Shown: positions 4,703-36,941 of the stretch, piece by piece
Numbering within the stretch: the first letter of the stretch is position 1
Layout of the letters: the number at the start of each line of letters is the position of its first letter
Assembly (NCBI RefSeq): GCF_036195325.1
Contig: NZ_CP108101.1
Span: 6,572,001 to 6,636,000, forward strand
From: Streptomyces sp. NBC_00234
Lineage (GTDB): Bacteria; Actinomycetota; Actinomycetes; Streptomycetales; Streptomycetaceae
Direction: 5' to 3'
Length of the DNA: 64,000 bases
Made by a program: the position numbers and the translations under genes
Notes under the pieces: generated by a model
Seen by the model: the letters and a program-made list of their open reading frames with translations, nothing else
Told to the model about the DNA's origin: nothing
Databases searched by the model: none

Positions 4703-6130
4703 GTGGCCGCTAAGCCCAGGTTTCGCAATGAAGCACATGAAGCAGTCGTAGTCGCAGGAAACGGCCGGAAGCATCCGGTCGACGAAACCCTCCCACCCCT
4801 GAAGATGTTCACCAGCGGCCTCCAGCACGTGGCCGCGATGTACGCCGGTGTCGTCGCCCCGCCCATGATCGTGGGACCCGCTGTGGGCCTCACCGCCAAG
4901 GAGACCGCCTTCCTGATGGGGGCGAGCCTCTTCACCGCGGGCATAGCCACCCTTCTCCAGACCCTCGGCTTCTGGCGCATCGGCGCCCGGCTGCCGTTCG
5001 TCAACGGCGTGTCGTTCGCCGGTGTGACGCCGATGGTGGCGATAGGCAAGGACCGCGGTCACGAAGGCATCGCCGTCATCTTCGGCGCGATCATCGTCGC
5101 GAGCCTCCTAGGATTCGTACTCGCCCCGTACTTCTGCAAGCTGGTCCGCTTCTTCCCGCCCGTGGTCACCGGCACCGTGATCACCCTGATCGGTGTCTCG
5201 CTCCTGCCGGTCGCCTTCAACTGGTCCCAGGGCGGCAACGGCGCGGCGGACGACTACGGTTCGATGACCAACATCACCATGGCCGCCGTCACCCTCGTGA
5301 TCGTGCTGGCGCTCCGCAAACTGCTGCGCGGCTTCCTCCAGCAGATCGCGATCCTCCTCGGCCTGGTCATCGGCACCCTGATCGCCATCCCGGTCGGCAT
5401 CACCGACTTCGGCCCCATCAAGGACGCCGATGTGGTCGGCTTCCCCACCCCGTTCCACTTCGGTGCCCCGCAGTTCGAGATCGCCGCCATCGTCTCGATG
5501 TGCATCGTGATGCTGGTCTGCATGACCGAGTCCACCGCGGACATGCTCGCTCTCGGCCGGATCGTCGACCGTCCGGCGGACGAGAAGACCATCGAGGGCG
5601 GACTGCGCGCCGACACCCTCGGCAGCGCCATCAGCCCGCTGTTCAACGGCTTCATGTGCAGCGCCTTCGCACAGAACATCGGTCTGGTCGCCATGACCAA
5701 GGTCCGCAGCCGGTTCGTCGTCGCCGCGGGCGGCGGCATCCTGATCGTGCTCGGACTGGTCCCGGTCGCGGCTTCGGTCATCGCGATCGTGCCGCTGCCC
5801 GTGCTCGGCGGCGCCGGCATCGTGCTCTTCGGCTCGGTCGCGGCGAGCGGCATCCAGACCCTGGCCACCGCCGCCCTGGAGAAGGGCGAGAACGCCCTGA
5901 TCGTCGCGGCGGCCGTCGGAATCGGCCTGATACCGATCGCAGCGCCGGAGTTCTACCACGCGTTCCCGGAGGACATGCTCGTCGTCCTCGACTCGGGCAT
6001 CTCCACGGGCTGTGTGGTGGCGATCCTCCTGAACCTGGCCTTCAACCACCTGGGCCGGAAGCCGGACGCGGACCAGGACCCGGCTCCGGAGCAGGCGCCG
6101 GAGAGTGCGGCCCCGGTGGCCGTGCACTGA
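4703..6130 (+). CDS. NCS2 family purine permease, second copy
   Basis: This 475-residue nucleobase:cation symporter 2 has the same plan as the gene at 1579: HPVDETLPPLK near the N-terminus, LQHVAAMYAGVVAPPMI in TM1, MTESTADMLALGRI in TM8 and CSAFAQNIGLVAMT in TM10. The C-terminal tail of about 25 residues is Pro/Ala/Glu-rich. The GTG start is set by GGAGGAACCGCC directly upstream. It has its own leader and terminator, so it is probably separately regulated from the first permease. One of the pair may favour urate and the other xanthine; sequence alone does not say which. Confidence 0.9.
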   Translation: MAAKPRFRNEAHEAVVVAGNGRKHPVDETLPPLKMFTSGLQHVAAMYAGVVAPPMIVGPAVGLTAKETAFLMGASLFTAGIATLLQTLGFWRIGARLPFVNGVSFAGVTPMVAIGKDRGHEGIAVIFGAIIVASLLGFVLAPYFCKLVRFFPPVVTGTVITLIGVSLLPVAFNWSQGGNGAADDYGSMTNITMAAVTLVIVLALRKLLRGFLQQIAILLGLVIGTLIAIPVGITDFGPIKDADVVGFPTPFHFGAPQFEIAAIVSMCIVMLVCMTESTADMLALGRIVDRPADEKTIEGGLRADTLGSAISPLFNGFMCSAFAQNIGLVAMTKVRSRFVVAAGGGILIVLGLVPVAASVIAIVPLPVLGGAGIVLFGSVAASGIQTLATAALEKGENALIVAAAVGIGLIPIAAPEFYHAFPEDMLVVLDSGISTGCVVAILLNLAFNHLGRKPDADQDPAPEQAPESAAPVAVH

Positions 6131-6210: not shown

Positions 6211-7083
6211 TCAGCCGATGCGATAGCTGTCGCCGTAGACCTGCCAGGCGAGTGGCGGGTCCAGGTTCAGATTGCCGTTCCGGAGGAAGACGCGCTGGGC
6301 GGTGTCCACCCGGCTGGTGTCCGAGTGGGCCTCCTCCTGTCGCATCGCCCAGACCCTGGCGTCCAGGAACGCGTCGAGGTACGCCACTTCGTCGCCGCCC
6401 TGCGACGGCGGCTCGGCGTTCGCGAGGGCCCTCCTGCGGATGGAGCCGAAGCTCGCGCTGTCGCCGCCGTCGCCGTGCATGACGAGGGCGTCGTAGTACG
6501 CGAACTGTCCGAGGGTGCCGAGCCCGTCGGCCTTGGCCTGCCTGACGGCCGGGTCGAAGTAGACCCGGTCGCGCTCGTCGTCCTGCGCCTGCCGGAAAGC
6601 GGGGTCGGACGCGGCCCGCGCCCAGTCCGTCGTGAAGCCCGGATCGAGCCCCTCGTGCGAGTCGCTGCCGTCCACCGCGCGCAGGGCGGGCAGATACGCC
6701 GCGAGTACGTTGCCGGGCTTGCGCTGTGTGTACAGCTCCACCAGGCCGAGCATGTCGCCGGTGCCCGAGCAGAAGCCGATGATGCCCGCGGTGTAGCCGC
6801 GGCCGTCGCCGATGTCCTCGATGTACCGGTACTGCGCCTTCCAGTCCAGCGAGGAGTTCTCCGCGCTGGACACCAGCTGCATGGCGATGTCCTTCTTCGC
6901 GGGATCGTCGAGCCCGTTCGCGGCGGCCTCCTGGTGGTGCGGGGCCGACGCGGTGGGGGCGCCGTCGGCATGGGCGGTCGTGGGGGTCGCCGTGAGGGCA
7001 AGGCCGAGCGCCAGGGCGGCGAAGCCGATGGGGCGGGTGAGTCGGGTGGTGCGACGTACGGTGCCTTTATGGGGGTTGTGCAC
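6211..7083 (-). CDS. csn: Secreted GH46 chitosanase
   Basis: This 290-residue precursor is an endo-chitosanase of glycoside hydrolase family 46, cleaving beta-1,4 links in chitosan outside the cell. The signal peptide has Arg residues at 10-16, a hydrophobic core at 20-33 and a likely AHA cleavage near 39. The catalytic pair is Glu75 (SSAENSS) and Asp93 (DIGDGRGY), 18 residues apart like Glu22/Asp40 of the Streptomyces N174 enzyme. GFCSGTGDML is also diagnostic. The GTG start at 7083 is 4 bases after GGAGG; the frame stays open far upstream without coding sense. An operator-like palindrome lies 39 bases upstream. It shares an identical 140-bp block with the gene at 7756. Confidence 0.95.
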   Translation of the reverse strand: MHNPHKGTVRRTTRLTRPIGFAALALGLALTATPTTAHADGAPTASAPHHQEAAANGLDDPAKKDIAMQLVSSAENSSLDWKAQYRYIEDIGDGRGYTAGIIGFCSGTGDMLGLVELYTQRKPGNVLAAYLPALRAVDGSDSHEGLDPGFTTDWARAASDPAFRQAQDDERDRVYFDPAVRQAKADGLGTLGQFAYYDALVMHGDGGDSASFGSIRRRALANAEPPSQGGDEVAYLDAFLDARVWAMRQEEAHSDTSRVDTAQRVFLRNGNLNLDPPLAWQVYGDSYRIG

Positions 7084-7121
7084 CTGTCCTCCAGAGGGAG
7101 TTCGTCGTGCCCTTGTTCTAT

Positions 7122-7136
7122 TAGGAAGCTTTACTA
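7122..7136 (-). promoter_or_regulatory. Operator-like palindrome upstream of csn
   Basis: TAGGAAGCTTTACTA is an imperfect palindrome (TAG-N-AA, 3-base centre, TT-N-CTA) 39 bases before the chitosanase start. On the gene's strand it is followed by TAGAAC, a possible -10. Chitosanase genes of Streptomyces are known to carry a conserved palindrome bound by the ROK repressor CsnR in this position; identity with that box is my inference. Confidence 0.5.
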
Positions 7137-7204
7137 TCAGACTCGGATGCGGTCGTACAGCCTTTCGCCACCGGCGGGCCGGGGTCCCGCTCCACGCACG
7201 AAGA

Positions 7205-7241
7205 GGCCCCGCACGGTGCCGGGGAAGCACCGTGCGGGGCC
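7205..7241. terminator. Strong hairpin terminator
   Basis: GGCCCCGCACGGTGC (7205-7219) pairs perfectly with 7227-7241 around a 7-base loop. It lies 15 bases beyond the stop of the SH3 protein gene and upstream of the csn promoter, separating the two minus-strand transcripts. Confidence 0.8.
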
Positions 7242-7256
7242 GAGGTGTCGTTACTC

Positions 7257-7565
7257 TCAGCAGTCGAGATAGGCCACGTGGATCCAGACGCCCGTACGGC
7301 CGCCCCACAGGTCGCCCATCACCCAGTTGCCCTGCTGCCCGCGGTAGTCGAGGTTCTGGCCGCGGTCCACCTGTCCGAGCACGGGGTAGTCCGTGCCCGG
7401 ACCGCCCCGGAAGTTCACCCCGTTGTCGTTGACCGTGCACACCAGCTGCGGCGCCAGGGCCGGCGCCGCGGCGGGCGCGTTCCCGACGGCCACCGCGGAG
7501 GGGCCGGCGGCCAGACCGAGACCGGCGGCAAGAACCATTGCGGTCAGCAACATCTTCTTCATCAT
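7257..7565 (-). CDS. Small secreted SH3-domain protein
   Basis: This 102-residue precursor has a signal peptide (MMKKMLLTAMVLAAGLGLAAG, cleavage probably near residue 29-35). A bacterial SH3-like fold follows, with VNFRGGPGTDYPVLGQVDRGQ and GNWVMGDLWGGRTGVWIHVAYL. Two Cys residues flank the domain and could form a disulfide. Such domains bind cell wall peptides; the ligand is not evident. Start is ATG-ATG at 7562/7565 after AGGGAGAGTTCAGAG. It sits between two chitosanase genes but ends in its own strong terminator, so a shared role is only suggested by position. Confidence 0.85.
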   Translation of the reverse strand: MMKKMLLTAMVLAAGLGLAAGPSAVAVGNAPAAAPALAPQLVCTVNDNGVNFRGGPGTDYPVLGQVDRGQNLDYRGQQGNWVMGDLWGGRTGVWIHVAYLDC

Positions 7566-7755
7566 CTCTGAACTCTCCCTGAGCTCCGGGGCACGCACCC
7601 GCGTGCACCTCCGCCTTCCCCAACGGGTCCCGCGGTGGTCGGGTCACGGGTGGGAACGGGGGTCGCCGGAGGAATGAAAGTGCAGGTCATCACGGACATG
7701 GACCGGCGCACACGGCTTCCCGGCCCGGTGCTCCGCGCGCCCACCGGCAGGGGGT

Positions 7756-8580
7756 TTAGAGACGGTCGACGTGGTAGCTCTCGCCGTACACCCGCCACCG
7801 CAGAGGAGTCTCCAACTGGAGTTTGCCTTCGCGTACGAACACCCGCTGTGCGGTCTCCACGCGGCTGGTGTCGGTGTGGGACGGCTCCTTGCGGATCGCT
7901 GCCACGCGGGCGTCGAGGAAGGCGTGGAGGTAGGTCTCCTCGTCGCCTCCCCGTGCGGGCGGATCGGCCTTCGCGAGCGCCTCGCGCCGGATCGTGGCGA
8001 AGCCGACCGAGCCGTCCGTGTCACCGTGACCGTGCATCACATAGGCGTCGTAGTAGATGAACTGGCCCAGGGCGCTGAGGCCGTCGTTCCGGGCCCGCTC
8101 GACCGCCGGGTCGAAGTAGGAGTGGTCACGCTCCGCATCCTGTGCCGACCGGAAGACCGGGTCCGCGGCGGCCTTCGCCCAGGCCCGGGTGAACGGGCGG
8201 CCGAGCCCCGTGTGCGCGTCGCTGCCTTCGACGGCGCGCAGCGCGGGCAGGTACCGCTCCAGCGGGTTGCCGGGCCGGGCCGCCGCGTACCGCTCGACGA
8301 CGGAGAGCATGTCGCCGGTGCCCGAGCAGAAGCCGATGATGCCCGCGGTGTAGCCGCGGCCGTCGCCGATGTCCTCGATGTACCGGTACTGCGCCTTCCA
8401 GTCCAGCGAGGAGTTCTCCGCGCTGGACACCAGCTGCATGGCGAGCTGTTTCTTCGCCGGATCGTCGAGGTCGGTCTCCGGGGCGGGGCCGCCGGATCCG
8501 GAGCAGCCGGTCAGTACGGCGACCGCCAGGAGCGCGGTGGCGGCGGCGGACACGAGCAGGGGGCGAACGGTGTGCTTCAC
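7756..8580 (-). CDS. Lipoprotein GH46 chitosanase
   Basis: This 274-residue GH46 chitosanase has a lipobox LTGC (Cys26) after a 20-residue hydrophobic stretch, so it should be tethered to the outer face of the membrane instead of released. Catalytic Glu55 and Asp73 keep the 18-residue spacing. It is a paralogue of the secreted enzyme at 6211, with clear differences over most of its length but an identical 140-bp block over the catalytic region. A surface-bound enzyme may trim oligomers released by the secreted one. ATG at 8580; the upstream gene is divergent at 8645. Confidence 0.94.
   Translation of the reverse strand: MKHTVRPLLVSAAATALLAVAVLTGCSGSGGPAPETDLDDPAKKQLAMQLVSSAENSSLDWKAQYRYIEDIGDGRGYTAGIIGFCSGTGDMLSVVERYAAARPGNPLERYLPALRAVEGSDAHTGLGRPFTRAWAKAAADPVFRSAQDAERDHSYFDPAVERARNDGLSALGQFIYYDAYVMHGHGDTDGSVGFATIRREALAKADPPARGGDEETYLHAFLDARVAAIRKEPSHTDTSRVETAQRVFVREGKLQLETPLRWRVYGESYHVDRL
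8305..8444. repeat. 140-bp identical block shared by the two GH46 genes
   Basis: Bases 8305-8444 are identical to 6748-6887, while flanking sequence in the same two genes differs at many positions including silent sites. The block encodes MQLVSSAENSSLDW through GFCSGTGDML, with both catalytic residues. Perfect identity at third positions points to gene conversion or very recent copying, not to selection on protein alone. Confidence 0.95.
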
Positions 8581-34785: not shown

Positions 34786-35778
34786 ATGCGCACGATCCGC
34801 ACGGCAACAGTCCTGATCGCCATAGGCGTTCTCACCCTCGCAGGATGCAGCGGGTCGGGCGGCAAGGACTCCGAGGACCCGTCCGGCGGCGGGGGAGGAG
34901 GCAAGGCGGTCTCCACCCCGCGTATGAAGATCGCGATGGTCACGCACTCCGGGCAGGGCGACACCTTCTGGGACATCGTGCAGAGCGGCGCGGAGCAGGC
35001 CGCGGCCAAGGACAACGTCGAGTTCCTCTACTCCGCCGACAAGGAGGGCAAGGAGCAGGCCCAGCTCGTCCAGGCCGCCATCGACCAGAAGGTCGACGGC
35101 ATCGTCGTCACCCTCGCCAAGCCGGACGCGGTCAAGGCGGTCGTGGCCAAGGCGGTCGCGGCCGGCATCCCCGTCGTGACCATCAACTCGGGCGCGCAGC
35201 ACTCCGCCGAGGTCGGCGCGCTCAGCCACATCGGCCAGGACGAGGCGGTCGCGGGCGAGGCCGTCGGCGAGGAGCTCAACGGCCGGGGCCGCAAGAAGGC
35301 GCTCTGCGTGATCCACGAACAGGGCAACGTGTCACTCGAAGAGCGCTGCGCCGGGGTGAAGAAGACCTTCGAGGGCGAGGTCGAGAACCTCAACGTCGAA
35401 GGCACCAACATGCCGGCCTCCACCTCCTCCATCGAGGCGAAGCTCCAGGCCGACCGGGACATCGACGCGATCGTCACCCTCGGAGCCCCGTTCGCCGCCG
35501 CCTCCGTCAAGGCCAAGGAGGGCTCCGGATCCACCGCCGAGGTCGACACCTTCGACCTCAACGCCGAGGTGGTCAAGCGGCTCAAGGCCGAGGAGGTCGG
35601 CTTCGCCGTCGACCAGCAGCCCTACCTCCAGGGCTATCTCGCCGTCGACGAACTCTGGCTCAACAAGACCAACGGCAACGTCATCGGCGGCGGGAAGCCG
35701 GTCCTCACCGGACCCGCGATCGTCACCGCGAAGGACGTACCGCAGCTGGAGAAATACACCGCGCGCGGCACCCGGTGA
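34786..35778 (+). CDS. Sugar ABC transporter binding lipoprotein, copy 1
   Basis: This 330-residue periplasmic-binding-protein type 4 (ribose/inositol class) has lipobox LAGC (about residue 22) and a Gly/Ser linker. The fold follows: [86 protein letters not shown]. The SBP next to it is about 65% similar by eye. First gene of the transporter operon, after a promoter with a GntR half-site. Confidence 0.94.
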   Translation: MRTIRTATVLIAIGVLTLAGCSGSGGKDSEDPSGGGGGGKAVSTPRMKIAMVTHSGQGDTFWDIVQSGAEQAAAKDNVEFLYSADKEGKEQAQLVQAAIDQKVDGIVVTLAKPDAVKAVVAKAVAAGIPVVTINSGAQHSAEVGALSHIGQDEAVAGEAVGEELNGRGRKKALCVIHEQGNVSLEERCAGVKKTFEGEVENLNVEGTNMPASTSSIEAKLQADRDIDAIVTLGAPFAAASVKAKEGSGSTAEVDTFDLNAEVVKRLKAEEVGFAVDQQPYLQGYLAVDELWLNKTNGNVIGGGKPVLTGPAIVTAKDVPQLEKYTARGTR

Positions 35779-35930: not shown

Positions 35931-36941
35931 GTGGCAAGGGTTCGGACAGGGGTACGCGCGATGGGCGCCGTGCTGGCAGCGGTGCTCGGGGCGTCCCTCA
36001 TGGGATGCAGCAGCACCGGCGGCAAGCGGGCGGAAGAGCGCGCGGCGCAGGCCGCGGAGGGCCGGTCCGCGGTGAACACACCGCGCTGGACCTTCGCCAT
36101 GGTCACCCACTCGGGCGACGGCGACACCTTCTGGGACATCGTCCAGAGCGGCGCCGAGCAGGCGGCGGTCAAGGACAACATCAACTTCCTCTACTCGCAC
36201 CACGACGAGGCGCAGCAGCAGGCCCAGCTCGTCCAGGCGGCCATCGACAAGAAGGTCGACGGGCTGATCGTCTCGCTCGCCAAGCCCGACGCCATGAAGG
36301 CCGTCGTCGCCAAGGCCACCGCGGCCGGCATCCCGGTGATCACCGTCAACTCCGGCTCCGCGGAGTCCAAGGAGTTCGGCGCCCTCACCCACATCGGCCA
36401 GGACGAGGCCATCGCCGGTGAGGCCGTGGGCGACGAGCTCGACCAGCGGGGCCGCAAGAAGGCCCTGTGCATCCTGCACGAGCAGGGCAACGTGGGCCAC
36501 GAGCAGCGCTGCGAGGGCGCCAAGAAGTCCTTCGGCGGCACGATGCAGAACCTCTACGTCGACGGCACCAACATGCCCGACGTCCAGGCGTCCATCGAGG
36601 CGAAGCTCCAGTCCGACAAGGGCATCGACGCGGTGGTCACCCTCGGCGCACCGTTCGCCGACGCCGCCGTGAAGGCGAAGGAGACCGCGGGCAGCAAGGC
36701 CGAGGTCGACACCTTCGACCTGAACGCCAAGGTCGCCACCGCGCTCAAGGACGGCACGCTCGGCTTCGCCGTCGACCAGCAGCCCTACCTCCAGGGGTAC
36801 GAGGCCGTCGACCTGCTCTGGCTCTACCGCTACAACCGCAACGTGCTCGGCGGCGGCCTGCCCGTCCTGACCGGCCCCCAGATCATCACCTCCGACGACG
36901 CGTCCGAGCTCGCCGAGTACACGAAGCGGGGGACCCGATGA
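35931..36941 (+). CDS. Sugar ABC transporter binding lipoprotein, copy 2
   Basis: This 336-residue paralogue of the preceding gene has lipobox LMGC (about residue 24) and the same fold landmarks ([64 protein letters not shown]). GTG start after AGAAGGGCACGGCGTC. It overlaps the permease by ATGA, so it is the copy translationally coupled to the transporter. The same frame is open upstream, but that part has no coding sense. Confidence 0.94.

Follow-up and report, generated by a model that had tools for sequence, protein, structure and literature searches.

Long-lasting, recurrent concerted evolution has been described in prokaryotes for 26 genes, tuf among them, that are homogenized over nearly their full length, and chitosanase genes are not on this list (PMC6053082). 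Gene conversion of domain 3 has been described between the release factor genes prfA and prfB (RF1/RF2) in Bacteroidia and Chloroflexi, with two ancestral events and later reversions (PMC4530459). The present case concerns two tandem chitosanase genes, A and B, of Streptomyces sp. NBC_00234, located in a stretch of 64,000 nucleotides that was analyzed as a whole (the window).

As in the tuf-type cases, paralogues of one genome were closer to each other than to orthologues, repeatedly and in many species, and closer than expected from the copies in other genomes. Homogenization over near full gene length was not found, however, and the affected region covers ~46 codons (~140 bp) only, with the rest of the genes 30% different. 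The likeness to RF1/RF2 lies in old, diverged paralogues with conversion limited to a functionally shared region and flanks that keep paralogue identity, whereas in the chitosanases a 46-codon segment of tandem genes is involved, repeatedly within one genus, and the process is visible at silent sites. We consider it highly probable (about 0.9) that recurrent, segment-restricted ectopic gene conversion takes place between these old tandem paralogues in many Streptomyces lineages, with the window representing a completed recent case. The process itself is thus known from tuf and RF1/RF2, but the literature searched appears to hold no description of a recurrent island of 140 bp in paralogues that are 30% diverged, and we found in it no report of gene conversion between GH46 paralogues and no paper joining gene conversion, chitosanase, and Streptomyces; the 2015 GH46 review makes no mention of a lipoprotein paralogue. 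What appears to be new is short, recurrent conversion between tandem secreted and lipid-anchored enzymes, a case that the published list of near full-length concerted genes would probably miss.

Tandem chitosanase genes and their 140-bp tract

The source chromosome is a single contig of 8.27 Mb with four GH46 genes, 2 of which lie in tandem on the minus strand, gene B upstream of gene A in the direction of transcription. Gene A (6211..7083, minus strand) encodes a GH46 chitosanase of 290 amino acids, assigned as secreted from its N-terminus, which carries an arginine-rich signal peptide without a lipobox, and was identified as the orthologue of SACTE_5457 (PDB 4ILY; matches to 4ily with E 6.7e-145 and to 1chk with E 4.6e-111). 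Gene B (7756..8580, minus strand) encodes a GH46 chitosanase of 274 amino acids, assigned as lipid-anchored from its lipobox (LTGC) and the alignment of B orthologues. Both genes matched the GH46 profile (PF01374; E 2.7e-103 for A and 6e-97 for B) over all 210 positions, with 344.5 bits for A and 323.8 bits for B (cut-off 27). The catalytic Glu, Asp, Arg, and Thr of CsnN174 (E22, D40, R42, and T45) have equivalents in both A and B, all inside the tract described below. By family match and catalytic residues, which they share with CsnN174 (1CHK) and SACTE_5457 (4ILY), A and B are ordinary GH46 members and are predicted to hydrolyze chitosan.

Between B and A lies a gene for a small SH3_3 protein (7257-7598). 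In a comparison with loci L052, L061, L063, L036, L039, L047, L056, L125, L123, and L129, some pairs had this small secreted protein gene in the B-A interval and others lacked it, and its scattered occurrence suggests repeated loss. An imperfect palindrome around AAGCTT (about 7119-7135) was observed upstream of gene A. A palindromic CsnR operator has been described for actinomycete chitosanase genes (PMC3048496), and the palindrome resembles it in position.

The preliminary description of this DNA had reported a stretch of 140 identical bases, silent sites included, in 2 genes that otherwise differ widely, covering the catalytic Glu and Asp of a secreted and a lipid-anchored enzyme, and all of this was borne out. 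The tract in A (6748..6887, minus strand; codons 67-112, equal to residues 14-59 of CsnN174) and that in B (8305..8444, minus strand) were identical at 140/140 bases and could not be extended, and downstream of the tract only 70% of bases and 63% of amino acids were identical. The tract spans 46 whole codons and 2 further bases; no other exact repeat in the window comes near this length, the next being 37 and 26 bp. A local control, the tandem permease genes (2203-2502 and 5327-5626) with ~71% identity, had no exact run of at least 24 bp in the window.

The synonymous comparison that had been proposed as a check gave agreement between A and B at 43/43 comparable codons in the tract and at 73/121 outside. 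In 100,000 permutations, no run of agreeing codons was as long as the longest one observed (p=1e-5), and codons with four- and six-fold degeneracy agreed in 24/24 cases in the tract vs. 37/80 outside (Fisher 4e-7). GC3 in the tract was 1.00. Chance and codon bias were ruled out, with a probability of ~10^-10 for the agreement from codon usage alone and no within-genome agreement at the downstream codons of the same genes. Assembly copying was ruled out as well, being implausible given the single contig and the same pattern found independently in 34 other genomes.

Agreement of paralogues within and between genomes

A scan for relatives of B yielded 79 loci, which were pooled with other loci to give 29 Streptomyces genomes (including the window) with a testable tandem pair, all in direct orientation with B first. 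A replication set of six further pairs was fetched after the first test, for a total of 35 genomes (the window and 34 others), with one genome sampled per species. Under constraint, A and B would be alike whatever genome they come from, and under copying, A would resemble its own B. The tract was far more similar than the rest of the genes in all 29 pairs. Synonymous identity between A and B in the tract was 0.840 within vs. 0.683 across genomes (permutation p<=5e-5), and downstream it was 0.513 within vs. 0.523 across (p=0.88). The six replication pairs gave 0.874 within vs. 0.695 across in the tract (exact p=0.0014) and no effect downstream. For all 35 pairs, the values were 0.85 within vs. 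0.69 between genomes in the tract (p<=5e-5) and 0.515 vs. 0.525 downstream, where the shuffles correct only partly for relatedness and the downstream part serves as the control for it. The within-genome excess amounted to 0.16 in the tract and to no more than 0.03 in each of 132 downstream windows of 46 codons, and it never exceeded 0.051 in 2,000 random downstream codon sets. Homogenization within genomes is thus recurrent, confined to the segment, and absent downstream.

Ancient constraint, in which protein and silent sites are under strong purifying selection and A and B do not exchange sequence, had been named in the preliminary description as a possible refutation. DNA identity of 86-96% in the segment across the genus is in line with it, as is silent identity among A-only genes (e.g., L065-L086), which was somewhat above the value predicted from downstream codons (0.76 vs. 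0.66). However, silent alleles vary between species (0.71 for A-A and 0.68 for B-B comparisons) and yet match between the two copies of a genome (0.85), against an expectation of 0.53 for within-genome pairs from downstream codons encoding the same amino acid. This within-genome agreement rules out DNA-level constraint as the main cause and makes an account by constraint alone highly improbable; it persists as a background contribution. The extra silent conservation of A-only genes is not explained by A-B conversion and may stem from interspecies exchange or coding-level constraint.

The excess had sharp edges, starting at about A residues 66-70 and dropping at about residue 112, just past the motif GDML, beyond which A and B are paralogue-specific, and the upstream edge of agreement differed among genomes. 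Mismatches were clustered, leaving agreement in contiguous blocks (combined p=1.5e-6) with ends that vary from genome to genome, and agreement was distributed over 24/30 variable codons, amino-acid changes included. A trans-acting element, such as a small RNA or a DNA-binding protein that recognizes the segment in both genes and causes their co-variation, also predicts within-genome agreement limited to one segment, but the spread over so many codons and the contiguous blocks with genome-specific ends point to copying and leave this explanation a very slim chance.

Trees gave a corresponding picture. Downstream of the tract (177 codons, 29 genomes), the A and B genes formed two clades with support of 100/100, and the 3' parts of A (6211..6747, minus strand) and B (7756..8304, minus strand) had no within-genome excess and are paralogue-specific and apparently unconverted. 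In the tract tree of the 29 genomes, the A and B labels were as mixed as shuffled ones (19 label changes vs. a mean of 19.8 after shuffling); a tree forced to separate A and B was rejected (lnL 120.7 lower, AU p=0.00018). The own partner was the reciprocal best match in the tract in 13/35 genomes (null mean 0.44, maximum 4) and downstream in 0, and in nine genomes the tract of the paralogue was closer than that of every orthologue in the set. The genomes with reciprocal best partners were scattered on the downstream tree, which requires several independent events.

The closest species with a pair was L006 (G057), the downstream sister of the window for both A (99/98) and B (100/98), and no closer relative was present in a draw of 393 genus genomes. 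The window and this species differ at three tract codons (TCG/TCA, CGG/AAG, and TCG/TCC), with A equal to B within each species, so that at least one conversion would postdate their divergence. Another three tract codons differ in one L006 copy only, implying that A and B are drifting apart again there. One codon, GGC in both window copies and in A of L006 but GGT in B of L006 and in the B-only L035, hints that the last conversion may have gone from A to B.

A single ancestral conversion or duplication, with similarity retained since, accommodates the age of the pair, which many species have in the same order and orientation. It predicts a tract A clade and a tract B clade younger than the event, but the two copies of a genome instead grouped together in scattered lineages, A and B changed jointly between the window and its sister species, and separated clades were rejected by the AU test above; we find this explanation barely credible. 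Gene conversion between the paralogues, as originally proposed, is therefore strongly supported and recent in the window, while the idea of one event gives way to recurrence across Streptomyces lineages, and the comparison with orthologues that was to expose an ancient block went against such a block.

Non-reciprocal transfer via homologous recombination would account for this pattern. Reciprocal exchange or deletion would be expected to produce A/B chimeras, and none (lipobox of B on the body of A, from deletion between direct repeats) was found among ~138 GH46 genes. Neither the secretion signal or lipobox nor the body after GDML had been exchanged between A and B in the sample. A genes had no real lipobox and B genes had one, the sole apparent exception being a B gene that reads through into A. 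In this genome, Streptomyces sp. RKAG290 (L054, 5001-6827), gene B has no stop before A and continues in frame, which could represent a lipoprotein with two catalytic domains or a sequencing error. Weakening of conversion with A-B distance was not seen (Spearman +0.33, p=0.05), and the two unlinked GH46 genes of the source genome showed no conversion with the pair (82% and 78% identity in the tract). Tandem GH46 pairs were also identified in Luteibacter (L104 and L105), with a segment of 74-78% identity; without near-identity in these pairs, tandem arrangement alone appears insufficient for conversion.

Segment conservation, homology, and tract limits

The mechanism that we propose begins with an old duplication that would have produced tandem A and B, now at ~70% base identity, in which homologous recombination would time and again have replaced the ~140-bp active-site segment of one copy by that of the other. 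With the catalytic segment under strong purifying selection and codon choice favoring high GC, DNA identity there (exact runs of ~25-60 bp) would stay sufficient for strand exchange, and the flanks would either have diverged beyond the homology limit or be shielded by selection for functions specific to each paralogue. The A and B tracts of different genomes are already ~90% identical. Median exact runs in the tract were 32 bp for cross-genome A/B pairs and 59 bp for own pairs, and the longest own-pair run downstream was 12-29 bp. Homology limitation is a plausible cause of the tract limits; the same edges would be expected if longer conversions were selected against. Actinobacteria, which have no MutS/MutL, use NucS, and the source genome was found to encode NucS and no MutS. 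Mycobacterial NucS restricts recombination when sequences have diverged (PMC8228993), and by analogy NucS may set the tract ends here.

Conversion had also been suggested to keep the two active sites alike, a view that the A-only genomes do not favor. Mean amino-acid identity of the segment was 96% in A-only Streptomyces vs. 93% in paired A genes, and with conservation of the segment no lower where an adjacent B is lacking, conversion is not needed for this purpose; conservation probably enables conversion rather than results from it. The locus is a clear example from nature of paralogues, otherwise too diverged to recombine, in which an island of DNA-level recombination appears to be maintained by purifying selection on a catalytic motif.

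Gene B was kept with no adjacent A in the genomes of L037, L040, L041, L050, L051, and L035, with tracts mostly less like the A pool, and two of these (L035 and L037) also carry another GH46 gene, which is unlinked and more distant. For the B genes without an adjacent A, runs shared with paired A genes had a median of only 26 bp, and their tract was less like the A pool (0.59 vs. 0.69 synonymous), in a B-only set that is largely one clade. Such genes are useful natural controls, and the tandem pairs form a natural series in which the homology limits of recombination in actinobacteria can be studied directly.

Variable residue at subsite +1

The segment corresponds to residues 14-59 of CsnN174, comprising the end of the helix of the general acid E22, the active-site stretch with D40, R42, and T45, and many substrate contacts (PMC4663542). 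From the alignment with 4ily and 1chk and the same source (PMC4663542), the general acid Glu codon was located at 6859..6861 in A and 8416-8418 in B (minus strand; A residue 75, E22 of CsnN174) and the general base Asp codon at 6805..6807 in A and 8362-8364 in B (minus strand; A residue 93, D40 of CsnN174). A variable residue of subsite +1 lies between them in both genes (A 6826..6828, B 8383-8385, minus strand); it is residue 86 of A, Arg in this genome, and corresponds to K33 of CsnN174 and G85 of SACTE_5457, the latter assigned to accommodation of the acetyl group at subsite +1 (PMC4663542). This position is among the most variable in the segment, and its codon is CGG in both window copies vs. 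AAG in both copies of the sister species.

A side effect of conversion would be that variable residues of the segment, the +1-subsite residue included, tend to match between the secreted and membrane-anchored enzymes of a strain, and a functional role of the shared +1 residue can be hypothesized. Recurrent conversion might further be favored by selection for matching cleft residues in both enzymes, which may act on the same chitosan chains, and the +1 residue was indeed the same in A and B in 21/35 genomes vs. 10.7 expected. We nevertheless regard this as unlikely, given that the residue differed in the remaining 14/35 genomes, that A-only genomes conserve the segment equally well or better, and that silent sites were carried along equally, as in neutral copying; tree-controlled tests of single residues had too few contrasts and were underpowered. 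It is correspondingly doubtful that the segment is an exchangeable cassette, with selection favoring repeated conversion so that both enzymes share variable cleft residues, notably the acetyl-accommodating one at subsite +1. If it were, the substrate preference of both enzymes would evolve in step while localization and the remainder of the fold would remain distinct. GH46 gene trees and specificity comparisons made from the active-site segment mix paralogues.

Elsewhere in the window, the 37-bp exact repeat (35597-35633 and 36760-36796) was located in two adjacent genes resembling those of substrate-binding proteins, both copies encoding the same 13 amino acids, and may represent the same phenomenon on a smaller scale.
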